Source of the DNA: Promethearchaeota archaeon
GTDB lineage: Archaea > Asgardarchaeota > Lokiarchaeia > Sigyniarchaeales > SOKP01
Assembly (NCBI GenBank): GCA_016839705.1
Contig: JAEOTR010000084.1
Location: forward strand, 1 to 64,000
DNA length: 64,000 nucleotides
Direction: 5' to 3'
Shown here: positions 10,985-63,259 of the stretch, in pieces
Numbering within the stretch: position 1 is the first letter of the stretch
Layout: every line of letters begins with the position of its first letter
Program-made: the position numbers and the translations under genes
Notes under the pieces: model-generated
Seen by the model: the letters and a program-made list of their open reading frames with translations, nothing else
Database searches by the model: none
What the model was told of the DNA's origin: nothing

Positions 10985-10990
10985 AGGTGA
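10985..10990 (+). promoter_or_regulatory. Shine-Dalgarno site of EF-2 (ATA start)
   Basis: AGGTGA lies 7 bases before an in-frame ATA at 10998. No ATG, GTG or TTG is available in frame between the upstream stop (TAA at 10980-10982) and the conserved part of the protein, so this site decides the start. Confidence 0.75.
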
Positions 10991-10997
10991 AAAACTT

Positions 10998-13280
10998 ATA
11001 GTCAAAGTAAAAAACCCAGAAGAAATTGCTCAACTGGTAACTTCTGGTTCTTATGATAAGAAAAGGATCTTCAGCATCACTGCTCATATTGATCACGGAA
11101 AGACTACCGCAACGGATTACCTATTAAGAAGAGCAGGATTAATGAGACCCGAGGATGCCGGACAGCTCCAAATGACAGATTCAGATTTAGATTAAGATCT
11201 ACTTGATCTACTGAAAGACGAGGAGCAAGCCCGCGGTATTACTATTTTTACAAGTGTAGTGTTACTAGCATTCAATGACTCTAGAAAACCAGATGATCCT
11301 GAACCTTATATTATTCAATTAAATGATACTCCTGGTCATATTAGTTTTACCGGAGAAGTATCGCGAGCTCTTAGAGGTAGCGATGGTGCTATAATTCTGG
11401 TTGATGCGCTTGAAGGTGTTATGACCCAAACAGAGACTAATATTCGTTTATCTGTTGGTGAGGAATACTGTAAACCAGTTTTATTCATTAACAAAGTTGA
11501 CCGATTGATAAGTGAATTGAAGTTAAGTCCTCAAGACACGTTTGCTAGAATAGACAAAATCACACGCGAAGTTAATGAACTTATAAGAAAAATTCGACCC
11601 GAAGGTTCTGATTGGAGTATTGACTTCGCTAAAAATTCTGTTGCAGTTGGTTCAGCAAAACATGGTTGGGGTTTTACTTATGAAATCTTACTCGAAAAGG
11701 GACTAAAACCACAAGATGTTTTCGCAAAATATAACGAAGGAGATATCCAATGGTTAAGGGATAATCTACCATTAGACGAACCCATGTTAAGAATGATTGT
11801 TGATCATCTTCCTGATCCTATTACCGCTGCTAAATACAGGATCCCTCATATATGGGGAGGTGACCTAAGTTCAGAACTTGGACAATCTCTCGTGAAGAGT
11901 GACCCAAATGGTCCACTTTATGGGATGATTACAAAAATTTTTCTCGATCCTAAAAGGAATTATCAAGCTACACTTATCGGTCGTGTTTTTTCAGGCACAT
12001 TTGACCAAACTGACTCAATATACTTAATTAATAGTGATTCAAGCAATCGGGTAAAGAGGTTAGGTGTTATGGAAATAACAGATCTTTTAGATATTTCTAG
12101 GATCCCTGCTGGAAACCTGTTTGCATTGTTTGGTTTTGTATGCCCTGCAGGTGAAACATTTATGTTAACAAATGATGTACCAAAGGATAAAGAAGAAAGA
12201 AAATTGTTGCATCCCTTTGAAAAAATTCAATACGCATGCGAAGCGGTTGTATCAAGAAGCATTAAACCAAAAGATCCACATGAAATTGATAAATTAGACG
12301 AAGTAGTTGGAAAATGGCTTAAAGCGAATCCCGAGGCAGAATACCGAAGAGATGAAGAATCTGGTGAATTTGTACTCTCTGGAATAGACCCTCTCCAAAT
12401 TGAAATCTTAACTAAGAGAATTAATAACCAAGTAGAAATAAGCATTGGAGAACCAATTATTATTTACAGAGAAAAAATTACGAAAAGGAGTCCTGAATTT
12501 CATACAAAATCAGCAAATACACACAATCGTATTTTGTTATACATCGAACCTTTAGATGAAACTACAGAAAAATTAATCGAAACTGGTAAAATAAATGATT
12601 TGCAAAGTGAAAAAGATAGAGCTCAAATACTTAGGGAAGATGCAGGATGGGATGCAAAAGAAGCAAGACGAATTGTTGACGTGTATCAAGGAAGTCTACT
12701 TGTGAATGGTACTTCAGGATTACAGAGATTTGATCGTGTAAAATCCTATTTGAGTGCTGCTTTTAGGGATTGGATTGGTAATTGTATAATTGCGAAAGAA
12801 CCTGCGACGGGTATTAAAGCCGTCTTTTTGGACATGACTATACATGAAGACCCCCGTCATACGCAATATGGACAGATTGCAGGTATGCTGTTCTCAGGTT
12901 TAGCACTTGCCATGTTGGATGCAGGTCCTCATCTGTTTGAGCCTGTACAGAGAATCGATATAAAAACGCCCCAAGGTACGGAAGGAGGTGTAACTGCAAT
13001 AATCTCTAAGCGTCGAGGAAGAATAACTAACGTTATTCCTGAAGGTGAATACGTTAGAATCAAAGGTCAGATTCCTACTGCCGAACAAATCGGCATTGCG
13101 GATGATATCCGAGGCTCAACTCAAGGAAGGGCATTTTTTGGCTACGAGTTTAAGGGATTTGAAAAAGTACCTGCTTCTTCAGAAGAAGATCTAATTTTAG
13201 AGATTCGCAAACGTAAAGGAATGGCACTAGAAATGCCAAATAGAAAGAGTTGGGAGCGTTTTATTTATAAACGGACCTAA
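10998..13280 (+). CDS. fusA: Translation elongation factor 2 (aEF-2), with ATA start and internal TAA
   Basis: About 760 codons; EF-2 drives ribosomal translocation. From an ATA start the protein reads 'VKVKNPEEIAQL', then G1 'AHIDHGKTT' near residue 32, 'DEEQARGITI' (switch I), 'NDTPGH' (G3) and 'NKVD' (G4). Codon 66 (11193-11195) is TAA, between 'MTDSDLD' and 'DLLDLLKDEEQ'. A single G-to-T change from GAA would explain it. Everything after it is intact for almost 700 codons and under apparent constraint. The domain IV tip reads 'IHEDPRHTQYGQ', where canonical archaeal EF-2 has a HRGxxQ-like diphthamide loop: the His is kept but the following Arg-Gly is lost. This resembles EF-2 paralogs described in Asgard archaea. 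It may be a recently damaged paralog, a sequencing error, or read through. Confidence 0.85.
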
Positions 13281-13288
13281 TTTTTTTT
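13281..13288 (+). terminator. Oligo-T terminator after EF-2
   Basis: Eight T follow the stop codon immediately, typical of archaeal intrinsic termination. The next gene is convergent. Confidence 0.5.
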
Positions 13289-13335
13289 AATTATCTTTAT
13301 TTGAAAATAGCAAAATAAAATATATTATATGATTA

Positions 13336-13934
13336 TTAAGAGAAACTGCTTATCTTAGCGATCATATATAATTTTTTCACTAGAGCTTGAAACGCATCGG
13401 TTACCCTTTGTCCTGTTAAAGCACTTGTTTTGTAATACCCTACAAATCTATTCTCTTTAGCAAATCGCTCTATATTACTATCTGATGTTGGTATATTTGG
13501 ATTCGAACCTAATTCCCCTTCATCAACCAAATCCACTTTATTTCCAAATAATACAATTGGTATATTCCCACAATGTGTTTTTAAGTCATTAAGCCATCTA
13601 GGAACATGTTCATAAGTCTGAGGTTGGTCATGAGAGTGAGAAAAAACAATTATAGCTCCACTACTCCCCGTATAGAATCTTTGGCGGAGTGCTTGAAAAG
13701 AATCTTGACCTGCTATATCCCAAAGATACAATTCAACTTTCTCACCATCAATAACCTCTTCATATTTAGAAAATTGCGTTCCAAGAGTTGAGATATACTC
13801 TTTCTGAAAAGCACCTTGAGTATATTTTTTGATTAATGATGTCTTTCCAACGGCTCCATCTCCAATAATTCCACTCTAAAGAATTTATTCAATAGATCTG
13901 TGATTTTGAAGCCGTAGCCTTTTTCAGTACTCAC
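13336..13934 (-). pseudogene. Ras-like small GTPase, disrupted by a ~29-base insertion
   Basis: This is a close paralog of the intact GTPase at 14093-14647. A GTG at 13934 opens 'STEKGYGFKIT', as in the paralog. About 29 extra bases (13870-13898) then break the frame just before the P-loop. Beyond them the other frame continues 'IIGDGAVGKTSLIKKYT' through 'WDIAGQDSF' (G3), 'GNKVDL' (G4) and 'KTSALTGQ' (G5) to a normal C-terminus. The remaining open frame in the second half lacks the P-loop. It is probably a dead copy of a tandem duplication; the insert is not a recognisable mobile element. Confidence 0.8.
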
Positions 13935-14092
13935 TTTTTCCAACCACCGTTTTTTTAAATTTCTCTTTCTTTGATTAGTAAAAGTTAGATGTTTTAAATT
14001 TTTACAAAAGATTATCCTTCTAAAATCGAAATAAAAGACAATATTATCCGTATATGTTAAAAAAACTACTAATGTGGAATATAAAAAGTAAT

Positions 14093-14647
14093 TTAAATTG
14101 TAGCTCGTTGGTATAATCTAAATACTAAGGTTTGAAAAGCTTCTTTTACACCCTGACCTGTTAAAGCGCTTGTTTTATAATATTTAATAATCTTATGATC
14201 TTGGGCAAATTTCTTTACATGAACATCTGAAGTTGCATAATTTGGGCTTGTAGCTACTGCATTTTGATCGACTAAATCCGCTTTATTTCCAAATAAAATA
14301 ATAGGGATATTCCCACATGCTTCTCTAATATTTGACAACCATTTATCAATGTGTTGATACGTTTCAAGTTGTTCAGGAGCAAGAGAAAATACAATAATAG
14401 CACCGCTACTTCCTTTATAAAATCTGTCACGTAGAGTGCTAAATGACTCTTGACCCGCTAAATCCCATAAAAACAAATCAACCAATTCTCCATTCAGAAT
14501 TTCTTCATATTTCGAAAATTGCATACCTAACGTAGAAATATAATCTTTTTCAAATGTATTTGATGTATATCTTTTAATAAGTGAAGTTTTACCTACTGCT
14601 GCATCACCCACTACCGTTATTTTAAATCCAAAAGCCTTTTCACTCAT
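14093..14647 (-). CDS. Ras/Rab-like small GTPase
   Basis: 184 residues and intact. G1 'GDAAVGKTS' is near residues 14-22, G2 'STLG' near 38, G3 'WDLAGQESF' near 62, G4 'GNKADL' near 120 and G5 'TSALTG' near 160. No C-terminal cysteine for prenylation is present, so membrane attachment would need another route. Expanded families of such GTPases are a hallmark of Asgard archaea and related to eukaryotic Ras superfamily proteins. A disrupted paralog lies 158 bases downstream on the same strand. The partner (GAP/GEF) is unknown; roadblock proteins in the window are at other loci. Confidence 0.93.
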   Translation of the reverse strand: MSEKAFGFKITVVGDAAVGKTSLIKRYTSNTFEKDYISTLGMQFSKYEEILNGELVDLFLWDLAGQESFSTLRDRFYKGSSGAIIVFSLAPEQLETYQHIDKWLSNIREACGNIPIILFGNKADLVDQNAVATSPNYATSDVHVKKFAQDHKIIKYYKTSALTGQGVKEAFQTLVFRLYQRATI

Positions 14648-14809
14648 CTTTAAGGTTAAATATATTTTTTATCGTTTTTTCTAATAGTATAAATAAGAAT
14701 TTTTAAGCCTTACTAAGTTTATCAAGTATTTAAAAATCATTACTAATTATTCATTACCCACCGAAGCTTCTTATGAATGACAGATTGAATTTTTAAAAAA
14801 AATTCAATT

Positions 14810-15523
14810 TTAAAAACCAAATAGCTGTATCAATTCATTAGTGTCATTTACTAATATATCTGGTTTGTATTTTATCAAAATTTCTTTTTGGGCGAGACCT
14901 GAGGCAACACAAACCATTTTTACATTAGCAGCTCTTCCAGCATCTATATCCGTGGTCATATCTCCAATGAAAATTGCTTCTGATGTCTTTACACCCCACT
15001 TATCAAGAATTTTTAGGATGCCTTCAGGATTTGGTTTAGTTTCTGAAACATCGTTAAAACCAATAATTGTGTTAAAATATTTGGTGAGATTGAATTTTTC
15101 TAAAACATCTTCGGCATAAGTGCTTTTATTATTAGTAAGAATTGCTAAATTCAATCTCTTATTGTATAATTTTGAAATTAATTTATCAATACCCTCAAAA
15201 ATTGTCGATTCTTGATCTTTATATTTATTAAATTGATTAAATATGAATATAGCGATACGGATTTTTTTAAAGAAACTTAAGCCCTCTAAAAATTTCACTT
15301 TAAGTAACTCATAGGAATTAAGCAGTATTTTAGGCACAGGATAATTTTGAATTTCCTCAATTAAGTGAGCAATTTCTTCCATCACTTCATCACGATTAAT
15401 TGATAATTGATATTTTTCTATCCCATCGTCAACTGCCTTTTTAATTGATTCAGTAATGTCGTAAATAACTCCATCAAGATCGAAGATTATCCCTTTATAT
15501 TTTTCTAAATTAATTTTTTCCAT
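14810..15523 (-). CDS. HAD superfamily hydrolase (phosphoglycolate phosphatase-like)
   Basis: 237 residues. Motif I 'FDLDGVIYD' is near residues 14-22, motif II 'ILTNNKS' near 133 and motif III Lys in 'ETKPNPEG'. Motif IV is 'FIGDMTTDIDAG' near 190. A helical cap of about 90 residues is inserted after motif I, as in subclass I phosphatases (Gph/PpaX type). The substrate is not determinable. It stands alone between two divergent or convergent neighbours. Confidence 0.88.
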   Translation of the reverse strand: MEKINLEKYKGIIFDLDGVIYDITESIKKAVDDGIEKYQLSINRDEVMEEIAHLIEEIQNYPVPKILLNSYELLKVKFLEGLSFFKKIRIAIFIFNQFNKYKDQESTIFEGIDKLISKLYNKRLNLAILTNNKSTYAEDVLEKFNLTKYFNTIIGFNDVSETKPNPEGILKILDKWGVKTSEAIFIGDMTTDIDAGRAANVKMVCVASGLAQKEILIKYKPDILVNDTNELIQLFGF

Positions 15524-15645
15524 ACTAGAGTGATTAAATATTGAGACTAATTTTAATTATACGATTCCTCAATATTTATAGGACTAAAGCACTATTATAA
15601 TTATTATACTAAAAACTGTTTAATATTGTCTAAACTAAATAAGCT

Positions 15646-16530
15646 ATGAGCGAAAATCAAAAAGATTACAGTGAAAATGAGGTTATAAAAGAAGAAGAAG
15701 TAGAAGATGATGATTTAAAAACTTATTTAGAAGAAATAAAGACCCTCGAGGCGGATTTTTCCGATTTAGAGGATTTAGACATGGAAGAACTTCAAGAAAT
15801 CCAAGAAGCTATTACCCAAGTTAAAGAAAGCGAAGAATTACCTGAAGCTGAAATAACTGGTGAATCGGAACCTGAGGAAGAAACAAAGGGTGAGCTAAGA
15901 CAAGAAAAAGAGCTTAGGGAAGCAATGATTACAGATTTTTCTGATATGGATGAAATTGATTTTGACGAATTAAGAGATATGCAAGATGCAATCTCTTCTG
16001 TTAAACAAGAAGAATTGCAGGGAATGCCAGATGGAGAAAGTGAAATCCAGCCAACTCAGGCAGTTGCTAAAGAATTAGAGGATAGAATAAAACAAGAGTT
16101 ATTAAAACGAAAAGAAGTTGAAGAAGAAGTCATCACTCCAGAGAAATTTTTAGAGTATATTAAAAATAAACGCGATAAAATTTGGTATCATGCTCTTTAT
16201 TACTTATTATTCCATGTTGAAGATCATATTGCCTCAAAAATTCTACTATATGATGTGTTAAAAGAAGTAACAAGCAAATCTCCAATAGATCCGATCCCAG
16301 AACATCAGTTTTATTTCGGGTTAGGATATATATTAAGATTGAATTTGAATAATAAACAGATCGTACGATTTCTAAAAGATGGAAAGTTTAAAATTAATGT
16401 TAATATTGATAATTTAAAAGAGCTTTTAGAGGTTGCTGGTGAACCTATAAGCACACGTCCAGTTATAAAAGAGGAAGAAAAAAAAAAGATGTATAGGGAT
16501 TTTCTTGATGAAGATTTTTTTGATATCTGA
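15646..16530 (+). CDS. Acidic two-repeat protein of unknown function
   Basis: 294 residues, not recognised. The N-terminal half is strongly acidic and carries two copies of a ~28-residue motif: 'DFSDLEDLDMEELQEIQEAI' near 38 and 'DFSDMDEIDFDELRDMQDAI' near 104, each followed by a Lys/Gln-Glu stretch. The C-terminal ~130 residues form a separate helical domain (beginning 'VITPEKFLEYIKNK', with 'WYHALYYLLFHVEDH'). A GTPase gene follows 31 bases later on the same strand, so the two are probably co-transcribed. The repeats look like short linear binding motifs; that is a guess. Confidence 0.75.
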   Translation: MSENQKDYSENEVIKEEEVEDDDLKTYLEEIKTLEADFSDLEDLDMEELQEIQEAITQVKESEELPEAEITGESEPEEETKGELRQEKELREAMITDFSDMDEIDFDELRDMQDAISSVKQEELQGMPDGESEIQPTQAVAKELEDRIKQELLKRKEVEEEVITPEKFLEYIKNKRDKIWYHALYYLLFHVEDHIASKILLYDVLKEVTSKSPIDPIPEHQFYFGLGYILRLNLNNKQIVRFLKDGKFKINVNIDNLKELLEVAGEPISTRPVIKEEEKKKMYRDFLDEDFFDI

Positions 16531-16561
16531 ATTAATAGGATTCTTAGTAATTTGAAGCAAA

Positions 16562-17188
16562 ATGAGTGATAAACCTTCTCTATTGATTATCGGGAATTCT
16601 AATGTGGGGAAAAGTTCAATCACTAGATTATTATTACCAAATCCTAGGCAGTTTAAGGGTAAAATTGGTAAGTCTCCCGGTAGTACTTTATTGTTAAAGC
16701 CAATTGAGCAACATAACTTACCTTATAGAATAATAGATCTACCTGGGTTTGGTTATACTAGCCATTCTAGTCGACGAAGGGGAGAACATATCAAGAAACA
16801 AATTGTTCGTCATATCGAAAAACATAGTAGGGATTATTTTTTTGGCCTAGTAGTAATTAATATCTTAAGAATTGAAGATGAGCTTAATAAGTATTTTATA
16901 AAGGAAAAAAAAACTATCCCTTTAAGTTTTGAATTAATTCAATTTTTAAGCGAGTTTAAAATCCCTCTCTTGATAGTTTTAAATAAGATTGATAAACTTA
17001 CCATATTTGATAAGGATAGAATTATCCAAATATTTATTAATCATGCTAAGGAGTTCGGACTTAATTTGGTTCAATTAAATAAATGCAGTTATAAAGACCA
17101 ATTCGAGATCCCTTTCTTAGAGTTTTCGGCATTAAAAAAAAGTAATTTAAAAGAGTTAAAACAGGCTATTCAAAATCATCTAAAATAA
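16562..17188 (+). CDS. EngB/YihA-like GTPase
   Basis: 208 residues. G1 'GNSNVGKSS' is near residues 11-19, 'GKSPGST' (G2-type loop) near 37, G3 'DLPGFGY' near 58 and G4 'NKID' near 140. G5 is around 'EFSALKK' near 188. The 'PGxT...DLPGFGY' combination is characteristic of the EngB (YsxC) family linked to ribosome assembly. It is read just after the acidic repeat protein; coupling to that protein is inferred from spacing only. Confidence 0.88.
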   Translation: MSDKPSLLIIGNSNVGKSSITRLLLPNPRQFKGKIGKSPGSTLLLKPIEQHNLPYRIIDLPGFGYTSHSSRRRGEHIKKQIVRHIEKHSRDYFFGLVVINILRIEDELNKYFIKEKKTIPLSFELIQFLSEFKIPLLIVLNKIDKLTIFDKDRIIQIFINHAKEFGLNLVQLNKCSYKDQFEIPFLEFSALKKSNLKELKQAIQNHLK

Positions 17189-17197
17189 AGCTTCGAT

Positions 17198-17806
17198 TTA
17201 TTTAATTCCTAAATGATTAGAAATAAAGTTTTTTAGTTCAGTATATTCTGTGTTCACTTGAAATTGTGGAAATTCTTGCTTTACCTTTTCAGACGGTCTA
17301 AATAAGATACCATAATCAGCATTCTCTAACATCCCAATATCGTTATAAGAATCACCAATCGCAATAATAGTGTAATTTAAATCTTTAAAAGCTCTCACAG
17401 TTTCCTTTTTCATATCTCTCAGACGCAATTTATAATTAATTATAAACCCATTTTTGTCAACTTCAAGATTATGACAAAAGATCATTGGATATTTTAGTTT
17501 TTTTGCGAAAGGTTTAATAAACTCAACAAAACTATCAGTGACAATTATTAATTGAGCATTCAACTGAAGCCAATCAATAAATTCTATCGCTCCAGGCAAA
17601 AGATCCATTTTCTCAATAATACTTTGAATATCATTTAATGAAATATCATTATCTCTAAGAATTTTCAATCTTTGATTCATAAGCATATCATAATCAGGAA
17701 TATCTCTTGTGGTTAAGCTGAGTTTTTCAATTCCTGTCTTATAAGCCACAGCTTCCCATATTTCTGGAGTAAATATTCCTTCTAAATCTAAACAGATAAT
17801 ATACAT
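17198..17806 (-). CDS. thrH: ThrH-like phosphoserine phosphatase / homoserine phosphotransferase (HAD)
   Basis: 202 residues, the family length. It begins 'MYIICLDLEGIFTPEIWEAV' with the ThrH-specific motif I DLEG in place of DxDGT. Then come 'TTRDIPDYDMLMNQRL', 'IVTDSF' (motif II) and 'GDSYNDIGML' (motif IV). The match extends along the whole Pseudomonas ThrH family pattern, including 'EFPQF' near the end. ThrH hydrolyses phosphoserine and can transfer the phosphate to homoserine. No serine or threonine genes are nearby. It is convergent with the EngB-like gene. Confidence 0.88.
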   Translation of the reverse strand: MYIICLDLEGIFTPEIWEAVAYKTGIEKLSLTTRDIPDYDMLMNQRLKILRDNDISLNDIQSIIEKMDLLPGAIEFIDWLQLNAQLIIVTDSFVEFIKPFAKKLKYPMIFCHNLEVDKNGFIINYKLRLRDMKKETVRAFKDLNYTIIAIGDSYNDIGMLENADYGILFRPSEKVKQEFPQFQVNTEYTELKNFISNHLGIK

Positions 17807-21161: not shown

Positions 21162-21162
21162 T

Positions 21163-48480: not shown

Positions 48481-48487
48481 AAGGTGA
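48481..48487 (+). promoter_or_regulatory. Shine-Dalgarno site of a small GTPase (ATT start)
   Basis: AAGGTGA, 9 bases before an in-frame ATT at 48497. The next in-frame ATG is inside the GTPase domain, beyond the P-loop and switch regions, so the true start must be at or near this ATT. Confidence 0.75.
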
Positions 48488-48496: not shown

Positions 48497-49036
48497 ATTC
48501 CGTCTAGTGATCTAACGTATAAAGTCTGTATTTTCGGTGATGGTGGTGTCGGGAAAACCACGTTAATTGGACGTTATTTAACCGGTGTATTTCAAAGTAA
48601 TTCGGAAATTACTATAGGAGTCGACTTTCATATTAAGAGATTAGAGATTCAGGATAAACGAGTCACATTACAAATCTGGGATTTTGCTGGTGAGGACAGG
48701 TTTAGATTTTTATTACCCAGTTATGTACTTGGTGCTTCAGGTGGAATTTTCATGTATGATATAACTCGTTATAGTTCACTTAAGAATTTTCAAGATTGGT
48801 TATATATTTTTAAACAAGGCTATAAGGGGCCAATTGCTCAAATACCTATCATAATGGTCGGAAGTAAATTAGATCTGGAATATAAAAGAGCTGTTTCTAG
48901 GAAAGACGCATATGAACTGGCAAAACAAAATGATTTATTTGGATATATTGAATGTTCCTCTAAAAATGGTCAAAATGTAGAAGAAGTTTTTGCTGAAATT
49001 GCTAGGTTGATGATGAAGAATACTAAAAATGATTAA
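48497..49036 (+). CDS. Rab-like small GTPase with ATT start
   Basis: 179 residues if begun at ATT 48497: 'PSSDLTYKVCIFGDGGVGKT' (G1 near 13-21), then G2 in 'EITIGVDFH' and G3 'WDFAGEDRF' near 63 (Glu where Gln61 is usual, as in many Lokiarchaeal GTPases). G4 is 'GSKLDLEYK' near 122 and G5 'CSSKNGQNVEEVF' near 155. The ordinary start (ATG 48752) would leave out the P-loop. No C-terminal cysteine is present. It is a single gene, unlinked to the other GTPases. Confidence 0.88.
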   Translation: MPSSDLTYKVCIFGDGGVGKTTLIGRYLTGVFQSNSEITIGVDFHIKRLEIQDKRVTLQIWDFAGEDRFRFLLPSYVLGASGGIFMYDITRYSSLKNFQDWLYIFKQGYKGPIAQIPIIMVGSKLDLEYKRAVSRKDAYELAKQNDLFGYIECSSKNGQNVEEVFAEIARLMMKNTKND

Positions 49037-53268: not shown

Positions 53269-53273
53269 AGGTG
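53269..53273 (+). promoter_or_regulatory. Shine-Dalgarno site of rpo7 (ATC start)
   Basis: AGGTG, 6 bases before ATC at 53280. The GTG inside this site (53271) is in frame with rpo7, but used as a start it would have no SD of its own and would add three residues before the conserved N-terminus. Confidence 0.65.
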
Positions 53274-53279: not shown

Positions 53280-53882
53280 ATCTTTAAACTTTTTACAATT
53301 GAAGGAAAAATTGAGATACCACCATTTCTTTTTGACCAGGAAAAGAGTGTAAGTGCCAGAATAATCTTAAGTGAAGATTATGAAGGCATTATCACAAGAG
53401 ACTTTGGATTTATTATTGCTGTTGTTGATGTTATAAATGTTGGAATGGGAATAATTATTCCAGGGAATGCTAATACGTTCCATGAGGTTGAATTTACGAT
53501 CCTTACATTTAAACCAATTGTTTCAGAAGTAGTTGAAGGAACTGTAGTTGAAATTGTGGATTTTGGCTCTTTCATTCGTTTAGGTCCTTTGGACGGTTTG
53601 GTTCATGTATCTCAAATTTGTGATGATTATATTTCTTACGAACAAGTAGGGAATAGATTTATCGGTAAGGAAACTGGAAAGATCCTTGAAGTAAATGATC
53701 AAGTAAGAGCAAAAATTATTGCAGTCTCTTTAGGAACAGGAAGAAGTGGAAAGCTTGGATTGACGATGCGTCAGAGGTATTTGGGAAAGGAAGAATGGAT
53801 TGAAAATGATCTCGAGGAAGATATTACTAACCAACAAACCGATCAAACAAAAGTTGATGAAGAAGAAAGTGCAACTGAATGA
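53280..53882 (+). CDS. rpo7: RNA polymerase subunit Rpo7 (RpoE1/Rpb7)
   Basis: 200 residues from ATC: 'FKLFTIEGKIEIPPFLF' is the Rpb7 start ('M-F/Y-x-L-x-x-I-x-x-x-I-R-I-P-P'). The N-terminal RNP domain is followed by an S1 domain ('EGTVVEIVDFGSFIRLGPLD' near 83 and 'DGLVHVSQI'). It has an acidic tail. Subunit of the Rpo4/7 stalk. The alternative GTG at 53271 is the SD core itself. Spt4 follows after 34 bases. Confidence 0.93.
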   Translation: MFKLFTIEGKIEIPPFLFDQEKSVSARIILSEDYEGIITRDFGFIIAVVDVINVGMGIIIPGNANTFHEVEFTILTFKPIVSEVVEGTVVEIVDFGSFIRLGPLDGLVHVSQICDDYISYEQVGNRFIGKETGKILEVNDQVRAKIIAVSLGTGRSGKLGLTMRQRYLGKEEWIENDLEEDITNQQTDQTKVDEEESATE

Positions 53883-55249: not shown

Positions 55250-55274
55250 CAATTACAAAAATCATGGAATAAAA

Positions 55275-56605: not shown

Positions 56606-56606
56606 G

Positions 56607-57278
56607 ATGAGTTCTGAAATAACTACAGAAAAACTTATCCATAAGGGTGCTGAAGCAAGTTTATTCTATGGTCATTGGTTTGGTAGAAACGTAATTTTTA
56701 AGCATCGAATTCCTAAAAAATATAGACTAGAAGAACTCGATAAAAAAATTCGAAGCGAGAGAACATTAAACGAAGGAAAAGCACTGATAAAGGTAAAAGG
56801 TTATGGATTAAATGTACCTCAAATTTACGAAATTGACACCCAGAATTCTATTCTCATCATGAAATATATCGAAGGAAAAAAATTGAAAAATATCTTAGAA
56901 AGCCTTAGTAAAAATAAAAAAGAAAAATATTTTAAGAAAATTGGTCGAGACATCGCAGTTTTACATAAGAATGGACATATTCACGGCGACATAACTACAA
57001 GTAATTTAATCGTTACAGATGAAGAAGAAATATTCCTCATCGATTTTGGACTACATGAATATTCTGATACAATAGAAGATAAAAGCGTTGATCTTCATCT
57101 TTTCAAGAGGGTCTTGATTTCTAGTCATGGTGATGATTTTGAATTCTGCTTTAATGCCTTCCTTGAGGGTTATAAGTCTGAATATGAGATTATCAACAAA
57201 ACAGATTGTGATCAGATTATTAAAAACATTAATGCAATAGAGTCAAGAGGTAGGTATGTAAAACCAGAGGATAGATAA
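56607..57278 (+). CDS. bud32: KEOPS subunit Bud32 kinase
   Basis: 223 residues. A minimal kinase fold: 'KGAEASLFYG' (P-loop), 'HGDITTSNLI' (catalytic loop; Asp near 133) and 'LIDFGLHEYS' (metal-binding DFG). It is the regulatory ATPase of Kae1. Kae1 and Bud32 are separate genes here, as opposed to the fused version in some archaea. Confidence 0.97.
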   Translation: MSSEITTEKLIHKGAEASLFYGHWFGRNVIFKHRIPKKYRLEELDKKIRSERTLNEGKALIKVKGYGLNVPQIYEIDTQNSILIMKYIEGKKLKNILESLSKNKKEKYFKKIGRDIAVLHKNGHIHGDITTSNLIVTDEEEIFLIDFGLHEYSDTIEDKSVDLHLFKRVLISSHGDDFEFCFNAFLEGYKSEYEIINKTDCDQIIKNINAIESRGRYVKPEDR

Positions 57279-57664
57279 TATGGTAAAATCCTCATATAAG
57301 AGATTTGAATTTATCTAGAAAATAGTATATTTTTGTTTTAAAAGGTAGATTTATTCTAAAAAGAGGAAATATAAAAGAAATGATGATTTTTTAATAAGAA
57401 TAAAATTTTTTCAGTCACTCATTTATTTATTCATATAAAATGTTCATCTAAATAGTTAAACATTTAAAATAATGTATATCTGGTATAGAATACTTTAAAT
57501 ACTTTAAATAGAGACAAATAACTTTATAAATTTATTTTACTTATACTATATTAGTGGAAAAGAGTGAATAACAGTAAGGGCAAAGCATATATCTGCGTTT
57601 CTTATTCACATTTTGATTTTTTATAAAAATAGTTTTCAACTCTAGATTACTTGGAGTAAATCTA
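57279..57664. other. AT-rich intergenic region before RHH gene
   Basis: 386 bases without a gene. AT-rich with a TATA-like stretch near 57520-57535. Contains the inverted repeat at 57564-57609 (separate entry), about 56 bases ahead of the RHH gene. No tRNA-like folding was recognised. Confidence 0.5.
57564..57609. repeat. Inverted repeat upstream of the RHH gene
   Basis: GTGAATAA (57564-57571) and its perfect complement TTATTCAC (57602-57609) enclose 30 bases. They could form a hairpin in RNA or two half-sites for the ribbon-helix-helix protein encoded just downstream. The spacing of 30 bases is close to three helical turns, which suits paired half-sites on one DNA face (inference). Confidence 0.55.
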
Positions 57665-57868
57665 ATGACAGACATGAAGAAAAAGAAACCTAAGATGATC
57701 AATATTACAATAAACATACCGGAAATTTATGATGAAAATATTCAGAATCTTATTAAAAAAAAAATTGTACCAAGTCGATCTGAAGCTATAAGAATTGCCC
57801 TTAGAGAATTTTTACACAATGAGTATAAGAACTTAAAATTACTTGGCTTTTTTGAAAATACTTCTTAG
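57665..57868 (+). CDS. Ribbon-helix-helix (CopG/NikR-like) DNA-binding protein
   Basis: 67 residues. 'MINITINIPEIYDENIQNLI' gives the DNA-reading ribbon and 'VPSRSEAIRIALREFLHNE' the two helices of an RHH domain. The N-terminus is Lys-rich. It is probably a dimeric repressor. No toxin gene is adjacent on either side. The inverted repeat upstream suggests autoregulation. Confidence 0.88.
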   Translation: MTDMKKKKPKMINITINIPEIYDENIQNLIKKKIVPSRSEAIRIALREFLHNEYKNLKLLGFFENTS

Positions 57869-58003
57869 TCTTTTAATCTACTCATATTAAGCTTCCTTTA
57901 AAGTAAGATGTCTTATTTTATGTTTATTTTTGATAAGTTAAAATTAAAAACACTATTTTATTTAGTTTTACTATACAAATTTTAAACTAATGAGAGAAAC
58001 TCC

Positions 58004-58606
58004 ATGAAATTATTTACTATATATGAAAATGGTGTTCTAAAGAAAATTGATAAAGTAGACTTTAACGATAAGAAAGTTTATCTGATTGATGATTTTAAAG
58101 TTTATTATTTATGGTTTGGTTCACACTGCTCTGAGAAGAAGAAAGAATTCGGAAAAAAAAGAGCAAAAGATCTAAATAATAAACGTAAATCCCCCGCTAA
58201 AATTCAAATTATTCATCAAAATAAGGAGTATGGAGCCTTTCTGGCTATTATGGATATCTTAAAGGAAGGATTAAACAGTGAGGATTCTAGAATAAAAAGA
58301 GACGAATTAGTTTTTGAGTTAGAAGAAACACTAGAACTTATTGATGCGGGATTAGAATTGGATTTAGAAGCCGAGATAACTCTAAAGGCCCACAAACTAT
58401 CACAAGAAGGAATATCATATGAAGATTTATCTAAGCGACTAGCAGAAACACAACTAATTCTCTTAAAGGGAAAAGAAAAGCCTTTAGAAAGTGAAATTAA
58501 GAAAAAAACTGAAGAGATACTAAATTCTTCTTCTACGTTTGAGGAATTGGCCTGGCTTGTATCAGAACTTGAAATTTTAATTATAAAAAAACAATTGAAA
58601 CAGTAA
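58004..58606 (+). CDS. Gelsolin-like domain protein
   Basis: 200 residues. Residues ~22-90 follow the gelsolin domain plan: 'KVYLIDDFKVYYLWFGSHCS' (LD...W.G strand pair), 'EKKKEFGKKRAKDL' (the long helix) and 'AKIQIIHQNKEYGAFLAIMD' (the closing strand and 'E-x-x-x-F' edge). A charged, helical C-terminal half (110-200) follows, with no second gelsolin domain evident. Asgard archaea are known to encode gelsolin-like actin regulators; this seems to be a single-domain version. No actin gene is in the window. It is convergent with rps28e. Confidence 0.75.
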   Translation: MKLFTIYENGVLKKIDKVDFNDKKVYLIDDFKVYYLWFGSHCSEKKKEFGKKRAKDLNNKRKSPAKIQIIHQNKEYGAFLAIMDILKEGLNSEDSRIKRDELVFELEETLELIDAGLELDLEAEITLKAHKLSQEGISYEDLSKRLAETQLILLKGKEKPLESEIKKKTEEILNSSSTFEELAWLVSELEILIIKKQLKQ

Positions 58607-58658
58607 TGAATTACTAAGTGAGGTTCAATCTATATTTAAATTATAGCCGTCTTTGTTT

Positions 58659-58901
58659 TTATCTTCTTGTTCGAATTTTTCTTGCTTCCCGTTCTACTTC
58701 TCTTAAAATTACAACATCATTCATTTTAATAGGCCCCTTGACATTACGAGTTAAGATTCGATTTTTATCTGGTCCATCTAAGATCCGAACCTTAATTTGT
58801 GTTATTTCTCCTGTAAGACCAGTTCGACCAATTATTTGAATAACCTGAGCTGGTGTAGACTGATCTTTAACTGAAACCTTAGATTTATCTAATTTTACTA
58901 T
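58659..58901 (-). CDS. rps28e: Ribosomal protein S28e (ATA start)
   Basis: 80 residues. '[20 protein letters not shown]' then '[20 protein letters not shown]' and '[19 protein letters not shown]' match S28e throughout, ending 'RKIRTRR'. The start is ATA at 58899-58901, 6 bases after TTGGTGA. No ATG, GTG or TTG exists in frame at the N-terminus, so ordinary gene callers miss this gene. It follows rpl7ae by 19 bases. Confidence 0.93.
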
Positions 58902-58907
58902 GATTAT

Positions 58908-58914
58908 TCACCAA
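58908..58914 (-). promoter_or_regulatory. Shine-Dalgarno site of rps28e
   Basis: TTGGTGA on the minus strand, located 6 bases before the ATA start of rps28e and just after the rpl7ae stop. Confidence 0.75.
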
Positions 58915-58920
58915 GTTGTT

Positions 58921-59292
58921 CTATTTTTTTATTTCTTCCAAATTCTTAATTACATCATTTAAAATACCATCATTTCCGGTTCCAACGTTTTCTATAGCTA
59001 TAGCACTTGCTGATACATTAATTCTAGCAGTATTACCAAGCTCTTTCTTTGTTGTTAAATAACCATAAGGAATACCTTTTTCTTCGCACAATAATGGTAT
59101 GTGGAATAATATCTCTGGGGGACTAACATCTTCAGCCATGATAACGATTTTAGCTTGTACTCTTTCGATTGATTTAGTAACTTCATTCATCCCTTTTCGT
59201 AATTTAGAATCTCTAGTCTCTGCGATTTTACTTAAGGCATTCTTAAGCTGATTTTTTAATTTATCCGGAATTTTAAATTTAATATATGAAAT
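58921..59292 (-). CDS. rpl7ae: Ribosomal protein L7Ae (ATT start)
   Basis: 123 residues from ATT 59292: 'SYIKFKIPDKLKNQLKNAL', then 'LRKGMNEVTKSIERVQAKIV' with the kink-turn recognition motif, and 'AEDVSPPEILFHIPLLCEEK'. It binds K-turn RNA in the ribosome, box C/D and H/ACA particles and RNase P. 123 residues is the family length. The next in-frame ATG (59190) would remove 34 conserved residues. The SD is AAGGAGAT, 8 bases upstream. Operon with rps28e. Confidence 0.93.
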   Translation of the reverse strand: MSYIKFKIPDKLKNQLKNALSKIAETRDSKLRKGMNEVTKSIERVQAKIVIMAEDVSPPEILFHIPLLCEEKGIPYGYLTTKKELGNTARINVSASAIAIENVGTGNDGILNDVIKNLEEIKK

Positions 59293-59300
59293 ATTTAATC

Positions 59301-59308
59301 ATCTCCTT
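59301..59308 (-). promoter_or_regulatory. Shine-Dalgarno site of rpl7ae
   Basis: AAGGAGAT on the minus strand, 8 bases before the ATT start of rpl7ae. It is among the strongest SD sequences in the window. Confidence 0.75.
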
Positions 59309-59439
59309 CAAATATACATTAATATATTTTCATAAATCATCGATATTCGATACACTTTTTAATACAAGATTAAAGATAAAATTTGTCATTTGGGACAAAA
59401 AGCCTAAAAATTTTTCTTTATATACTCTTGAGGGATTAA

Positions 59440-59583
59440 GTGATAAACATTCCAAATAATTGTGAATTTATCATGAAAGTTAGTCTGAAAAAATTAAAAG
59501 GATTAAAAAAAATTAATAATTTATTTGCACTTATAATTTGGCTAGGGTTATTAACAGAAGCAATTATCTGTATGTGGATTTGA
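59440..59583 (+). CDS. Possible small membrane protein
   Basis: 47 residues from GTG 59440, six bases after GAGG (36 from the in-frame ATG at 59474). A Lys-rich start ('KVSLKKLKGLKK') leads into a single hydrophobic helix ('NLFALIIWLGLLTEAIICMW'), so a one-pass membrane peptide with positive-inside topology. A TATA-like CTTTATATA (59416-59424) lies very close upstream. There is no homolog known to me; it may be chance. Confidence 0.3.
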   Translation: MINIPNNCEFIMKVSLKKLKGLKKINNLFALIIWLGLLTEAIICMWI

Positions 59584-59688
59584 GAAATGGAAAAACTTAT
59601 TTTTAATGAATTACTTGATAACATACATTTAGAATAATTCTAATTTTATTATCAAATCTATTAAATACATAAAGCAAATTAACCCAAA

Positions 59689-59698
59689 GGAGGAGATG
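59689..59698 (+). promoter_or_regulatory. Shine-Dalgarno site of rpo10
   Basis: GGAGGAGATG ends 4 bases before the ATA start of rpo10 (the GGAGG core ends 9 bases before). The ATG inside it is out of frame. Confidence 0.75.
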
Positions 59699-59702
59699 TA
59701 TC

Positions 59703-59903
59703 ATAATTATACCGATCCGCTGCTTTTCATGCGGAAAATTAATAGCTCATATTTACGAGCCTTATTTGGAGCTTTTGGAGAAAGGTGAATCATCCGAAAA
59801 AGCCTTTAAAGAATTAGGGATTGAAAGGTTCTGTTGTAAAAGAATGGTGGTTAGCCACGTGGATTTAATAGATGAGTTACTTAAATTTCCACGCTTGCAA
59901 TAA
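59703..59903 (+). CDS. rpo10: RNA polymerase subunit Rpo10 (RpoN/Rpb10), ATA start
   Basis: 66 residues. After the ATA the protein reads 'IIPIRCFSCGKLIAHIYEPY', the Rpb10 start, where M-I-I-P-x-R-C is nearly invariant. 'ERFCCKRMVVSHVDLIDELL' follows with the CC pair. C6, C9, C43 and C44 bind zinc. The subunit lies in the Rpo3/10/11/12 platform. It has no ATG, GTG or TTG start and so is missed by routine gene callers. It is convergent with rpl24e. Confidence 0.95.
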   Translation: MIIPIRCFSCGKLIAHIYEPYLELLEKGESSEKAFKELGIERFCCKRMVVSHVDLIDELLKFPRLQ

Positions 59904-59917
59904 TTTTTTCTTTTTTT
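59904..59917 (+). terminator. Oligo-T terminator after rpo10
   Basis: Six T and seven T separated by a single C directly after the stop codon. Confidence 0.5.
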
Positions 59918-59951
59918 AAATATTAATAAGATTTAATTAGAATAAAATTTT

Positions 59952-60134
59952 CTATTCTTTTCCGTAATAAGCAGTCCATCTGGTCTTTCTTGCTTTTTTC
60001 TTAAATATCAACATTGATTTTTTACACTTATTAGTACAAAAATTTAGAATTGTACCGTCTCTTCTAATAAACATAATTCCACGACCAATCGGTATGTCAT
60101 ACCCACAAAATGAGCAACGCTTGACTTTTGCCAT
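59952..60134 (-). CDS. rpl24e: Ribosomal protein L24e
   Basis: 60 residues. 'RCSFCGYDIPIGRGIMFIRR' then 'LNFCTNKCKKSMLIFKKKAR' gives the zinc ribbon and the tail of L24e. ATG with a GGATGA SD. It follows rps6e by 22 bases and is convergent with rpo10. In many archaea L24e lies next to L7Ae and S28e; here rpo10 interrupts that run on the opposite strand. Confidence 0.95.
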   Translation of the reverse strand: MAKVKRCSFCGYDIPIGRGIMFIRRDGTILNFCTNKCKKSMLIFKKKARKTRWTAYYGKE

Positions 60135-60156
60135 ATTATATCATCCTAATATTTGA

Positions 60157-60561
60157 TTATTCTTTTTCTTTCTTAAAGAGTTCGGCTTCTCCGTATTTCA
60201 TAACCTTTAAATTGATTAAAGTCATATCAGATGTGACTTCATTGCCTCGTACTGTTTTTCTCCTCTTTTCCCCTTGCCTTCTTGGTTTGTATCCAATACC
60301 ACGTTTGGAAACAAGAATTTTCTTTTTCACAGGCCCATGAACATCTTTTCTCATTGGAAAGCCACTTGAATCACTTCCACCTGTAATTTCAAACTCATAG
60401 TTAGGAAATCCGATTAAACCTCCCTTAATGATCTCGCCCATTTTCATACCTTCAAATCGAAATTTTTTTTCATCGATCTCAATAAGTTTAGTCATTCCTT
60501 TTCCAGAGCCTTCCTTTCCACCACTAATATTTAGCTTGTAAACAATTTTTTCCGAAGACAC
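60157..60561 (-). CDS. rps6e: Ribosomal protein S6e
   Basis: 134 residues from GTG 60561. 'VYKLNISGGKEGSGKGMTKL', 'LIGFPNYEFEITGGSDSSGF' and 'PMRKDVHGPVKKKILVSKR' are the S6e core. The 'RRQGEKRRKTVRGNEVTSDM' stretch is the family end. An in-frame ATC directly precedes the GTG, and no clear SD lies upstream, so the exact start is uncertain. First gene of the rps6e-rpl24e pair. Confidence 0.94.
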   Translation of the reverse strand: MSSEKIVYKLNISGGKEGSGKGMTKLIEIDEKKFRFEGMKMGEIIKGGLIGFPNYEFEITGGSDSSGFPMRKDVHGPVKKKILVSKRGIGYKPRRQGEKRRKTVRGNEVTSDMTLINLKVMKYGEAELFKKEKE

Positions 60562-60733
60562 GATACATCATATTCGAACTTGAAAAAATAAGATTAACTT
60601 CAGAAATGTATATTTTCATAAAAATTTTATGGATTAGGACTAGATTAATATTCTGAATTAATATATATAATGAAATTTATTTTAACAATAATTTCCTATA
60701 AAAATTATAGAAAATTTTCATGTATTATCTTTT

Positions 60734-61576
60734 ATGCAGATTTTTGAAGTAATTGAGCTGAAAGAGTTTCCTTTTATGGAAACAAGAGAAATTGTAGAGG
60801 GTACAACAGTTCGTGATATATTAAAAAATGGGTGCATTAATAGGGTATTTTTACTTGTTGATCACGATACGAAAAGAATTTTAATATATAATTGTCCCCA
60901 GAGTTCAATAAAAAAACAAATCTATGGTGGAATTTTAGCAGGAAAGTTCCGTCAACAATTAAAAGGGTTTTATAGAGTTTATCCCTTAAATATGTATTCC
61001 ACTACTGATAAAGAATTTCAAGAAATAATAGATAAACCATTGGGTCCTGGGAGAACAAAACCAATTGAGAAAGAAGATTTTTCAAAGCCAACACCAGACC
61101 GATTTATTGTTAATGTCTCAACCCAAAATCCGAATATGAAAAAAGCAATTGAATATATTTCTCAACTTCCAAAACAAGAAAATTTGGTTAGAAGATTTAT
61201 GATAATTGGAGGCCAAATTTTTACTGATGAAGAAATTACAGAAACTTTTCTTAAAGAGGAGAGACACATTATAAAACCTATAAAATTAGGACGATTGAAT
61301 AATGGTTTTACGTTCTTTAAAGATCATAATTATGCTACTAGACTAATAATAAAAGATCGCAAAATACAGGGAATTGAATTATATGTTGATAAAGATGACC
61401 AATCTCCTCCATTGGAATTGCAAATCCCAATAATTTATGAGGAAAAATTCAATAAACCAGGTTCGATTAAAACGTTAATAAATGCTTTTCAAATCCCAGA
61501 TAAAATGCCAGAAGAAACAGAAGTACAAAAAGAAAAGGATATTCTCTCAAAAGATGATTTTACTAATCAACCCTAA
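60734..61576 (+). CDS. Hypothetical protein, possibly gelsolin/ADF-like N-terminus
   Basis: 280 residues, not recognised as a named family. Residues ~36-95 show a gelsolin-like plan: 'RVFLLVDHDTKRILIYNCPQ', then a helix 'KKQIYGGILAGKFRQQLKG' and the strand 'FYRVYPLNM'. The rest has a second alpha/beta region ('FMIIGGQIFTDEEITETFLK', 'NGFTFFKDHNYATRLIIKDR') and a Pro/Glu/Lys-rich tail. The gene for a radical SAM enzyme overlaps its end by 23 bases. The gelsolin idea needs a structure prediction. Confidence 0.6.
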   Translation: MQIFEVIELKEFPFMETREIVEGTTVRDILKNGCINRVFLLVDHDTKRILIYNCPQSSIKKQIYGGILAGKFRQQLKGFYRVYPLNMYSTTDKEFQEIIDKPLGPGRTKPIEKEDFSKPTPDRFIVNVSTQNPNMKKAIEYISQLPKQENLVRRFMIIGGQIFTDEEITETFLKEERHIIKPIKLGRLNNGFTFFKDHNYATRLIIKDRKIQGIELYVDKDDQSPPLELQIPIIYEEKFNKPGSIKTLINAFQIPDKMPEETEVQKEKDILSKDDFTNQP

Positions 61577-62897
61577 AACTTCTAAAGTATCAGAAGTTCA
61601 AAGAGAATTTTTTAGAGAACCAAATTTGGGATTGCTATATTTAGCCGCAATATTAGATTTTAACAATATTTCTGTTGATATCTTAGATCTAGAGCAGTAT
61701 TTAGATTTTACAGATTTAGAAATAAAAGATATCATTAAGGAGAAGTCAAAAAATTACTCTATTTTTGGAATTACATCATTGACAAACACATTCCATCTAG
61801 CTCTTGATATCGCACGAATTATTAAAGGACAAAACAGGAACAGTTTCATTATGTTAGGTGGTCCACATGTCACATTTATGTATAATGAAATCTTGGAAAA
61901 TGATAAAAATTCAGAAAACTTAATCGATTTCATTTGTATTGGAGAAGCTGAAATTTCAATGCTTACATTAGTAAAAATCTTAGTCTCTCATAATCAAACC
62001 AACAAAAAATTAAACATTTATGAGGATAGATTAAAAAAGATTAAGGGACTAGCTTTCTATGATTCAAAAGGGAAGCTCAATGTGAATTTAGGGACCAATG
62101 AAATCGATCTAGAAAATTTACCCTTACCTGCTCGTTATAAATTATCTCAAGATTATTATTATTACACTATCGCTAACGTAATAGTTAATAGAGGATGCCC
62201 TAATCAATGCTCATTTTGTTCAAGACAAAAATTATTCAAAAAAACAAAAATCAGAAGTATTTCATCAATATTATCAGAGATAAGAGCAATTCAAGCCTTG
62301 CAAACGTACAAATACATAAACTTTTACGATAATATCAACATTAATAGTGCCTTCCTTAGAGAATTTTGCAACATGTTCATTGAAAATAAGATCGATATTC
62401 CTTGGGGTTGTGAAATTCGTGTGGATACCATAACTTTTGAAGAAGCTCGCTTGTTAAAATCGGCTGGTTGTATGCTTATAGCGACGGGTATAGAATCTGC
62501 TAGTATTGATGTACTCAATAAAAACTTTAAATTCCAGGAACCAGAAAAAGTAAAAAAAGGAATAGAAAATTTAAAAAAAAACAAGATTCCAATCCAAGCA
62601 TATTTTGTGTTAGGATTACCAGGCGAGACTGAAAAAACCTTTCAAAAAACGATTAATTATATTAAAAATTTACCTTTAGATGAAAATGATAAATTGAATT
62701 ACTTCGTAGCAACGCCCTATCCTGGATCTCGATTATGGGATGAAAAAAATCAATTTAATATAAATATTATAGAAACCAATTTTGCTAATTACGATTGCGA
62801 ACATTTGATTTTTGAAACAACAGAATTAAACCAAAGCAAGTTAGAAAATCTCTACCATACCGCAAAGGAAATAGAAAATCAATTTAATAGAAAATAG
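61554..62897 (+). CDS. B12-binding-domain radical SAM enzyme
   Basis: 447 residues from ATG 61554 (earlier in-frame starts lie within the previous gene and give an unnatural Lys-rich N-terminus). The N-terminal B12-binding-type domain is 'ILLINPKTSKVSEVQREFF', 'NLGLLYLAAILDFNNISVDI' and 'FIMLGGPHVTFM'. The radical SAM CX3CX2C is in 'NRGCPNQCSFCSRQ' near residue 215-226. 'GIESASIDVLNK' and 'YFVLGLPGETEKT' are the later motifs of the B12-radical SAM family. The reaction (methylation, ring change or other) is open. It overlaps the preceding gene by 23 bases, so the two are linked. Confidence 0.9.
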   Translation: MILLINPKTSKVSEVQREFFREPNLGLLYLAAILDFNNISVDILDLEQYLDFTDLEIKDIIKEKSKNYSIFGITSLTNTFHLALDIARIIKGQNRNSFIMLGGPHVTFMYNEILENDKNSENLIDFICIGEAEISMLTLVKILVSHNQTNKKLNIYEDRLKKIKGLAFYDSKGKLNVNLGTNEIDLENLPLPARYKLSQDYYYYTIANVIVNRGCPNQCSFCSRQKLFKKTKIRSISSILSEIRAIQALQTYKYINFYDNININSAFLREFCNMFIENKIDIPWGCEIRVDTITFEEARLLKSAGCMLIATGIESASIDVLNKNFKFQEPEKVKKGIENLKKNKIPIQAYFVLGLPGETEKTFQKTINYIKNLPLDENDKLNYFVATPYPGSRLWDEKNQFNINIIETNFANYDCEHLIFETTELNQSKLENLYHTAKEIENQFNRK

Positions 62898-62926
62898 AAA
62901 TTTCTAAAAATAAAAACAAGAGGTGC

Positions 62927-63259
62927 ATTGAGGTTCCTAGTGAGTTTACTAAAAATGTGATCAATATTATTCAAAAAATCCCAAAAGGAAAAGTTCTAAC
63001 CTATGGTTTTATAGCTAGATTAGCAGGAAATCCAAGAGCTGCGCGGCAAGTTTCATGGATTTTACACTCGTCTAGCAAGAAATATCACTTACCCTGGCAC
63101 CGTGTTATAAGCTCAAATGGGTCATTATCAATGAAATCAATTGAAGATAGACAATATCACAAAAAACTTCTGGAATTAGAAGATATCACGTTTTTAGATA
63201 ATTTTAAAATAAATCTAGAGAAATATCTTTGGAAACCCAAGATGGGTGAATTGGTTTAA
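62927..63259 (+). CDS. Alkyltransferase-like protein (ATL/MGMT fold)
   Basis: 110 residues. 'FTKNVINIIQKIPKGKVLTY' and 'GFIARLAGNPRAARQVSWIL' are the DNA-binding part of the alkylguanine transferase fold. The active-site motif reads 'LPWHRVISS', with Trp for the Cys of MGMT. ATL proteins bind O6-alkylguanine without repairing it and pass it to nucleotide excision repair. The start is doubtful: ATT 62927 gives a family-like N-terminus, but GAGGTG lies only one base away. GTG 62957 is the ordinary alternative and would trim ten residues. Confidence 0.85.
   Translation: MEVPSEFTKNVINIIQKIPKGKVLTYGFIARLAGNPRAARQVSWILHSSSKKYHLPWHRVISSNGSLSMKSIEDRQYHKKLLELEDITFLDNFKINLEKYLWKPKMGELV

Follow-up and report, generated by a model that had tools for sequence, protein, structure and literature searches.

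AUH codons at the head of seven genes in the window

The window analysed here, 64,000 nucleotides of a Promethearchaeota archaeon of the Lokiarchaeia (assembly GCA_016839705.1, contig JAEOTR010000084.1, positions 1 to 64,000), contains seven genes with AUU, AUC or AUA (together AUH) at their head, each placed after a Shine-Dalgarno (SD) site. ATG, GTG and TTG are called canonical below; G-numbers denote genomes, G000 being the window's own with 3.36 Mb, and L-numbers denote loci. The standard genetic code of prokaryotes (NCBI table 11) permits AUH codons as starts. The seven codons and their SD-like sites had been pointed out by a first-pass annotation of the window; all positions and frames were verified, S28e and L7Ae lying on the minus strand, and the observation itself is confirmed. 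The gene identities proposed at the same time agree with profile matches: EFG domains and aEF-2 for EF-2, Ras for a Rab/Ras-like GTPase, Rpb7-N and S1 for Rpo7, S28e, L7Ae, RNA_pol_N for Rpo10 and DNA_binding_1 for an alkyltransferase-like gene (ATL).

Support is uneven from site to site. The L7Ae and Rpo10 starts are common to many relatives. L7Ae (58924-59292, minus strand) has its putative ATT start codon at 59290-59292, preceded by the SD AAGGAGATGA at 59299-59308, whose TGA is the in-frame stop. Rpo10 (59703-59903, plus strand) has ATA at 59703-59705 after the SD AAGGAGGAGAT at 59687-59697. The EF-2, S28e and Rpo7 sites are weaker. EF-2 (plus strand, to 13280) would start with ATA at 10998-11000 after the SD AAGGTGA at 10984-10990, and S28e (58662-58901, minus strand) with ATA at 58899-58901 after TTGGTGA at 58908-58914. 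In Rpo7 (plus strand, to 53882) the candidate start is ATC at 53280-53282, which encodes the residue aligned to position 1 of NCBIfam NF006333, and the SD AGGTG occupies 53269-53273. The Rab/Ras-like GTPase gene (plus strand, to 49036) carries ATT at 48497-48499 after AAGGTGA at 48481-48487. The weakest site, judged from the window sequence alone, is ATL (plus strand), where a possible ATT start at 62927-62929 lies just 1 nt from the SD-like GAGGTG at 62920-62925.

The first-pass annotation had also claimed that no canonical codon could replace these starts. This holds for six sites: EF-2, the Rab-like gene, S28e, L7Ae, Rpo10 and ATL have no in-frame canonical codon between the upstream stop and AUH. 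At Rpo7 an in-frame GTG (53271), three codons 5' of the ATC and within the SD, had been overlooked. If translation began at the next canonical codon downstream, the proteins would lose 48 residues (EF-2), 85 (Rab-like), 55 (Rpo7), 59 (S28e), 34 (L7Ae), 21 (Rpo10) and 10 (ATL).

The start column in related genomes

In the genomes of the same Lokiarchaeal family start codons were scored in the column that precedes a conserved N-terminal motif. These anchored motifs took the place of automatic start columns from alignments, which were dropped because they often picked internal ATGs. The ribosomal protein uS14 has AUH in 17 of 22 family rows (the remainder being ATG in three and TTG in two) and in all 16 readable genomes of the window's genus (ATA 8, ATT 7, ATC 1). 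In the genus the SD GGTGA itself creates an in-frame TGA two codons 5' of the start, and from this TGA to the stop codon the frame is wholly devoid of ATG, GTG and TTG in eight genomes (G001, G002, G011, G012, G013, G015, G018 and G030). An essential ribosomal protein therefore needs a non-canonical start in these organisms. L7Ae follows genus boundaries, with AUH in 13 of 27 family rows, comprising all 13 rows of the genus (ATT 12, ATA 1), and ATG in all 14 rows of the other genera. The motif for uS8 matched nothing and uS8 was not counted; uL22 and uL15 were likewise set aside, ATG, GTG or TTG lying beside the anchored column in many rows and making the start ambiguous.

Rpo10 occurs in two forms. 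Its 35 family rows divide into AUH (16), GTT (1), ATG (15) and TTG (3), and an SD run of at least 5 is present in all 16 AUH rows and missing from 14 of the 15 ATG rows (Fisher p 5.7e-8, kinship ignored). The missing SD suggests that the ATG forms are leaderless. On a tree built from seven ribosomal genes, the forms with SD and AUH and those with ATG and no SD are separated by 9 switches among 20 of the 23 tree taxa, G024 and G025 (TTG) and G030 (ATG with SD) being omitted. Such switching between close species of the genus suggests promoter turnover or gene replacement. In G056 and G052, Asgard genomes that do not belong to the family, Rpo10 also carries ATA. The single GTT, in G036 (L008), follows a strong SD, and tolerance of a third-base mismatch may extend to GUU.

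Could the AUH codons be assembly or sequencing errors at ATG sites? The window comes from a metagenome assembly, and its EF-2 and S28e codons are single sites unlike those of most relatives. Errors are nonetheless scarcely conceivable as a general explanation, being contradicted at uS14, L7Ae, Rpo10 and aIF1 (see below), whose AUH codons recur in many independent assemblies, including named GTDB records.

The confinement of this feature was examined at Rpo10 in named genomes, using the best 80 of 580 confirmed stretches. The 13 Lokiarchaeal loci among them have ATG (9), ATT (3) and ATA (1). AUH is absent from the 67 other loci, one Heimdallarchaeon and one labelled bacterium included, which have ATG (58), TTG (2), GTG (2) or another codon (5). 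In three of these last five ATG or GTG lies directly 5', and in L207 and L244 the start was not located.

The gene of the fidelity factor aIF1

The same arrangement is found outside the window at the gene of aIF1. The window's own genome has a single SUI1 gene (SUI1 E 1e-17), which scores above the cut-off of NCBIfam NF002096, a profile named after YciH, and matches the eukaryotic SUI1 model TIGR01160 only below its cut-off. It gives no match to IF3 models in the two profile libraries scanned and is by this measure not homologous to IF3. In all 29 Lokiarchaeal rows, AUH (ATT 26, ATA 2, ATC 1) stands five (25 rows) or six codons (4 rows) 5' of a conserved ICxxC motif, and in 27 of them no canonical codon occurs between the upstream stop and ICxxC. 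G004, with its N-terminus masked by N, was omitted from this set. The SD (L252:10261-10270, complement) reads AGGTTGTGAT, that is AGGAGGTGAT with two mismatches, and is kept in most family rows.

A pattern built from these starts with the third base left free (GGTTGTGA N4-10 ATN AAAGANGA) matches in 37 of 65 family genomes, where it reads ATT in 36, ATC in one and ATG in none. One further match, ATA in G119, may be due to chance. In 18 of the 37 genomes the match adjoins the mapped aIF1 gene, in another 18 aIF1 is unmapped, and in G004 the match lies elsewhere. The 28 family genomes without a match include at least some with differing flanks, such as G012. The control set consisted of 36 genomes drawn from the 80 of the Rpo10 loci; 27 of the 30 non-Asgard genomes were matched, and none of these 27 loci is devoid of a canonical codon. 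ATG lies 21-24 codons before the SUI1 domain in 25 of them, TTG in L309 and L311. Two side observations concern this gene. Second SUI1 copies in G013 (C101:70448-70663) and G032 (C222:16454-16669) may be contamination, and in G004 the N-masked aIF1 N-terminus lies at C1:1385131 and the start pattern occurs elsewhere (1032069).

The possibility that the proteins begin at other codons, whether at a GTG within the SD, further upstream without a leader, or at an ATG, GTG or TTG inside the frame, can be weighed gene by gene. Rpo7 has its GTG in the SD, and a GTG lies ten codons upstream in aIF1 of G024 and of G032. The Rab-like gene, for which the motif matched 6 of 17 loci and left the other 11 unmatched, keeps ATT CCT after GGTGA in G007 and G014, both of which additionally carry ATG six codons downstream; the start region of G003, G005 and G016 differs from that of the window. 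Such alternatives fail at uS14, given the stop two codons upstream and the eight genomes with no canonical codon in the frame, and in seven aIF1 rows, where 81 residues separate ICxxC from the next canonical codon. As an account of the whole set, initiation elsewhere is thus very unlikely.

Comparison of orthologues thus shows AUH in the start column, after an SD and with no usable canonical codon, for a set of genes of the Lokiarchaeal family (uS14, L7Ae, Rpo10 and aIF1), and it points to AUH as their probable start. That the initiation machinery of this organism accepts AUH, as the first-pass annotation supposed, is well supported by the recurrence of these codons in many independent assemblies without a good alternative.

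Initiation machinery and RNA processing

To judge from their genes, the initiator tRNA and the 16S tail look ordinary. The 16S tail GGCTGGATCACCTCC is present in the window's own genome, so that GGAGGTGATC-like sites can pair with it as SD. The initiator tRNA gene begins with AGCGGGG and shows a GGG arm in the anticodon stem, and an intron follows its CAT. The anticodon, whose identity had been named as a point worth checking, is thus CAU by our reading; ARAGORN labels the locus tRNA-Ser(aga), and labels five sister loci Met(cat). In many initiator tRNA genes (L142-L161) the anticodon loop is interrupted by an intron, and several have an insertion closer to the T arm.

AUH might also be read by a dedicated initiator tRNA whose anticodon is not CAU, or translation might begin with isoleucine. 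No altered initiator was found, the tRNA list of the window's own genome being incomplete with 20 genes. A probe for the 36-base 5' part of the initiator, which excludes the anticodon, matched exactly once with up to 2 mismatches in 18 of 36 genomes, the window's own included, and revealed no second copy there; the other 18 genomes gave no match. We consider both readings highly improbable.

RNA processing deserves separate mention. The EF-2 frame of the window contains an in-frame TAA at 11193-11195 that the first-pass annotation did not notice. It lies within a 30-nt insertion (11187-11216, plus strand) at an otherwise gap-free site, shared by 9 of 29 aligned genomes including the window and missing from the others; G007, which lacks the anchor, was left out. 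The predicted fold has a 4-bp helix, UCAG/CUGA, flanked by the bulges AUU and AAG (z-scores -2.1 and -2.9), and the cuts that we read from this bulge-helix-bulge fold would excise exactly the 30 nt. It is therefore likely to be a short bulge-helix-bulge intron in a protein gene. The cbf5 mRNA introns of archaea described in PMC2738675 are likewise introns in a protein gene; they differ in gene and lineage, and splicing of EF-2 is predicted here. Further in-frame stops in EF-2 of G012 (L335) and G006 (L328) perhaps mark additional introns. A tRNA-Stop(tta) reported by ARAGORN in the window's own genome (L132:1501-1604, also L037:5785-5888) was rejected as a reader of the EF-2 TAA; by our reading the sequence is a tRNA-Lys(TTT) with an intron.

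Might RNA editing or splicing convert AUH to AUG before translation? The tRNA introns and the likely EF-2 mRNA intron testify to RNA processing in these cells. Three different third bases would nevertheless call for three different changes, and the distance from SD to start is nearly constant in the anchored rows, with no sign of an insertion. Conversion to AUG is accordingly a very remote explanation.

Third-base change, enrichment and the case for drift

Changes at the third base of the start codon were counted on the tree and compared with those in four-fold degenerate columns of the same taxa; G034, which has two candidate AUH codons, was omitted for aIF1, and off-tree taxa were omitted for L7Ae. 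The aIF1 third base changed twice among 17 taxa, against a mean of 5.5 changes for the 171 four-fold columns, of which just 4 had as few. L7Ae gives a weak signal, with one change among 11 taxa and 11 of 172 columns as few. The rate is ordinary for uS14, whose third base varies between A, T and C (4 changes among 17 taxa; 53 of 138 columns as few), and the SD copies of Rpo10 showed 3 changes among 10 taxa (81 of 160 columns as few). Taken singly, none of the genes shows significant selection against a third-base G.

A scan of the window's own genome made no use of homology. It covered 0.49 Mb and counted codons that lie 5-9 nt from a strong SD where an open frame begins; four small contigs consisting entirely of N were excluded with their loci. 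AUH was found 20 times against 10.2 expected, and 38 times against 33.8 at the remaining spacings. At 5-9 nt the scan also returned ATG 7 times (2.9 expected), GTG and TTG together 9 times (2.2), GTH once (3.4) and TTH 5 times (10.3). Eight of the 20 AUH matches are the known window sites, Rpo10 alone giving 4, and outside the window there are 12, with about 9 expected by length. AUH is also high at spacings of 1, 2 and 15 (5-6 against about 2). Scans by duplex energy returned 47 AUH against 41.9 (-6), 33 against 26.0 (-7), 18 against 12.8 (-8) and 11 against 5.8 (-9). In a looser scan from SD to codon ATT ranked third (11 against 5.6) among the 14 codons listed, ATA and ATC not being among them. 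The first of these scans adds ETF alpha (ATA, L038:14853) as an AUH candidate. The claim of the first-pass annotation that AUH starts here far exceed their usual rarity is thus best supported through orthologues, and the enrichment seen without homology is slight.

These results bear on a simpler explanation, that the AUH starts are genuine and unregulated, the SD placing the ribosome and the third base, weakly selected, being left to drift. Several observations favour it, and others, given along with them, weigh against control through aIF1. EF-2 and S28e have AUH scattered among relatives with ATG or TTG. Among 30 EF-2 loci 27 are readable (G006, G007 and G012 are not), and ATA occurs in G000 and G017 only, ATG in the other 25. 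ATA of S28e is unique to G000, 13 other genus rows having TTG (9), GTG (2) or ATG (2) in the same column. Rpo7 was compared in 8 rows, 6 of which have ATG; it has ATC in G000 and ATT in G025. AUH use is gene-specific and not general to ribosomal or translation genes: uS3 has ATG in 10 of 10 rows, uL14 has ATG in 17 of 22 (GTG 3, TTG 1, ATA 1), and AUH is found beyond translation, ETF alpha (ATA) and the Ras-like GTPase being among the candidates. In Rpo10 of G030 the SD stands together with ATG. The ordinary rate of change in uS14 and the non-significant lack of G also suit drift, and many four-fold columns lack G too (38 of 171 for aIF1, 57 of 172 for L7Ae, 32 of 138 for uS14, 57 of 160 for Rpo10). 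The slight homology-free enrichment weighs against control through aIF1 as well. At aIF1 itself ICxxC begins with an isoleucine codon that is likewise AUH, the sole other AUH candidate in most rows, and by its codon a start there would be possible. Among distant Asgard rows outside the family aIF1 has ATA in G040 and G044, and probably in G051, G053 and G054, but canonical codons in several others, TTG in G042, G046 and G052, GTG in G055, and ATG in G041, G045, G047, G056, G057 and the Heimdallarchaeon L320.

Against drift stand the aIF1-type site, which has ATT in all but one of 37 genomes and ATG in none, the aIF1 third base, which changed less than nearly all four-fold columns, and L7Ae, with AUH in 13 of 13 genus rows. 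We regard unregulated drift as a serious possibility, though a less probable one than control through aIF1. As to the scattered sites, ATG at the same positions in related genomes had been named beforehand as a mark of local error, and it was found for EF-2 in 25 rows; because other genes have AUH in many relatives, we read the EF-2 codon as natural variation. In S28e of G027 (L357) the stretch from the GGTGA stop to the conserved body is free of canonical codons; its start column holds TTA, and ATC immediately precedes it.

A model for AUH initiation and its relation to known systems

What would be the implications of an AUU start on the gene of a factor that monitors start codons? Based on the conservation described above, we propose that an initiator tRNA with the anticodon CAU is placed by the SD and would pair with the first two bases of AUH, the third remaining mismatched and the SD compensating. 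aIF1 would likely discriminate against such mismatched starts and hold the AUH genes at a reduced, adjustable level. A conserved AUU at the probable start of its own gene should then make aIF1 a repressor of its own production, in the manner of IF3 and infC, and through its level it should govern how much is made from the remaining AUH genes: uS14, L7Ae, Rpo10 and, in certain species, also Rpo7, EF-2 and further genes. The earlier suggestion that the codon tunes expression becomes more plausible than could be appreciated at the time, because aIF1 itself has the conserved AUU. Taken as a whole, SD-placed AUH starts that are limited by aIF1, with aIF1 feeding back on itself, offer the explanation towards which we lean, with somewhat better than even confidence; the feedback step is one that we infer. 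The stronger proposal of an aIF1-governed AUH regulon in Lokiarchaea, in which a self-limiting AUU sets the output of ribosomal, RNA polymerase and other genes, is put forward more tentatively, as something that may well be true and falls just short of probable. A practical corollary would be that gene callers limited to ATG, GTG and TTG truncate or miss uS14, Rpo10 and aIF1 in these genomes.

Published surveys set the scale. PMC5397173 includes annotated AUA, AUU and AUC genes in its set, and PMC5622118 records a single AUG-to-AUU change among 61,358 ancestral AUG starts in 36 prokaryote groups, a rarity that makes the density of AUH described here unusual. In Prometheoarchaeum SD sites are reported not to be prevalent at annotated starts (PMC7531240). 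Among the matches listed in a literature search, with preprints and most subscription journals outside it, there was no AUH-start pattern in Asgard archaea and no non-AUG start of aIF1. The belief that nothing of the kind had been reported for Asgard archaea needs a small correction, since PMC13394414 describes a likely 'rare ATT start codon' with a ribosome-binding site for AtubA, a tubulin gene of Kariarchaeaceae. This resembles our sites as an Asgard gene with a likely ATT after its binding site, but it concerns one gene, deduced from predicted structure and alignment, and the passages on it describe no wider pattern or link to aIF1.

The closest relative of the proposed circuit is the autoregulation of infC by IF3. 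According to PMC5472188, infC starts with ATT in E. coli and ATC in Streptomyces, and its ATT start is repressed by IF3, so that the gene of the fidelity factor itself begins at a near-cognate AUH. The Lokiarchaeal aIF1 gene appears to combine the same features: it encodes a fidelity factor, its putative start is near-cognate and non-AUG, and a non-AUG codon is conserved in the family. It differs in that aIF1 is a SUI1-family protein and not IF3, that several other core genes share AUH, and that self-regulation is here predicted by analogy. The same source describes sigR of Streptomyces, with a GTC start, which like our non-translation candidates is a gene outside translation, held low by IF3 via a non-canonical start; it differs in being a single bacterial gene with GUC that was studied experimentally. 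Discrimination by the archaeal factor has a precedent: PMC6237735 cites work on S. solfataricus in which aIF1 disfavoured non-canonical starts, and itself shows that an elongator tRNA is rejected in P. abyssi.

If the model is true, Lokiarchaea would have arrived at an archaeal equivalent of infC by way of a factor that is unrelated to IF3 and belongs to the lineage of eukaryotic eIF1. Eukaryotic eIF1 autoregulates through a weak start, an AUG in poor context and with no SD. Both cases would have a SUI1 homologue that restrains its own production by way of a weak start; they part in what makes it weak, an AUG in poor context for eIF1 and a non-AUG codon for aIF1. A conserved AUU on aIF1 in archaea near the origin of eukaryotes would link the self-control of bacterial IF3 with that of eukaryotic eIF1 in a simple, testable circuit.

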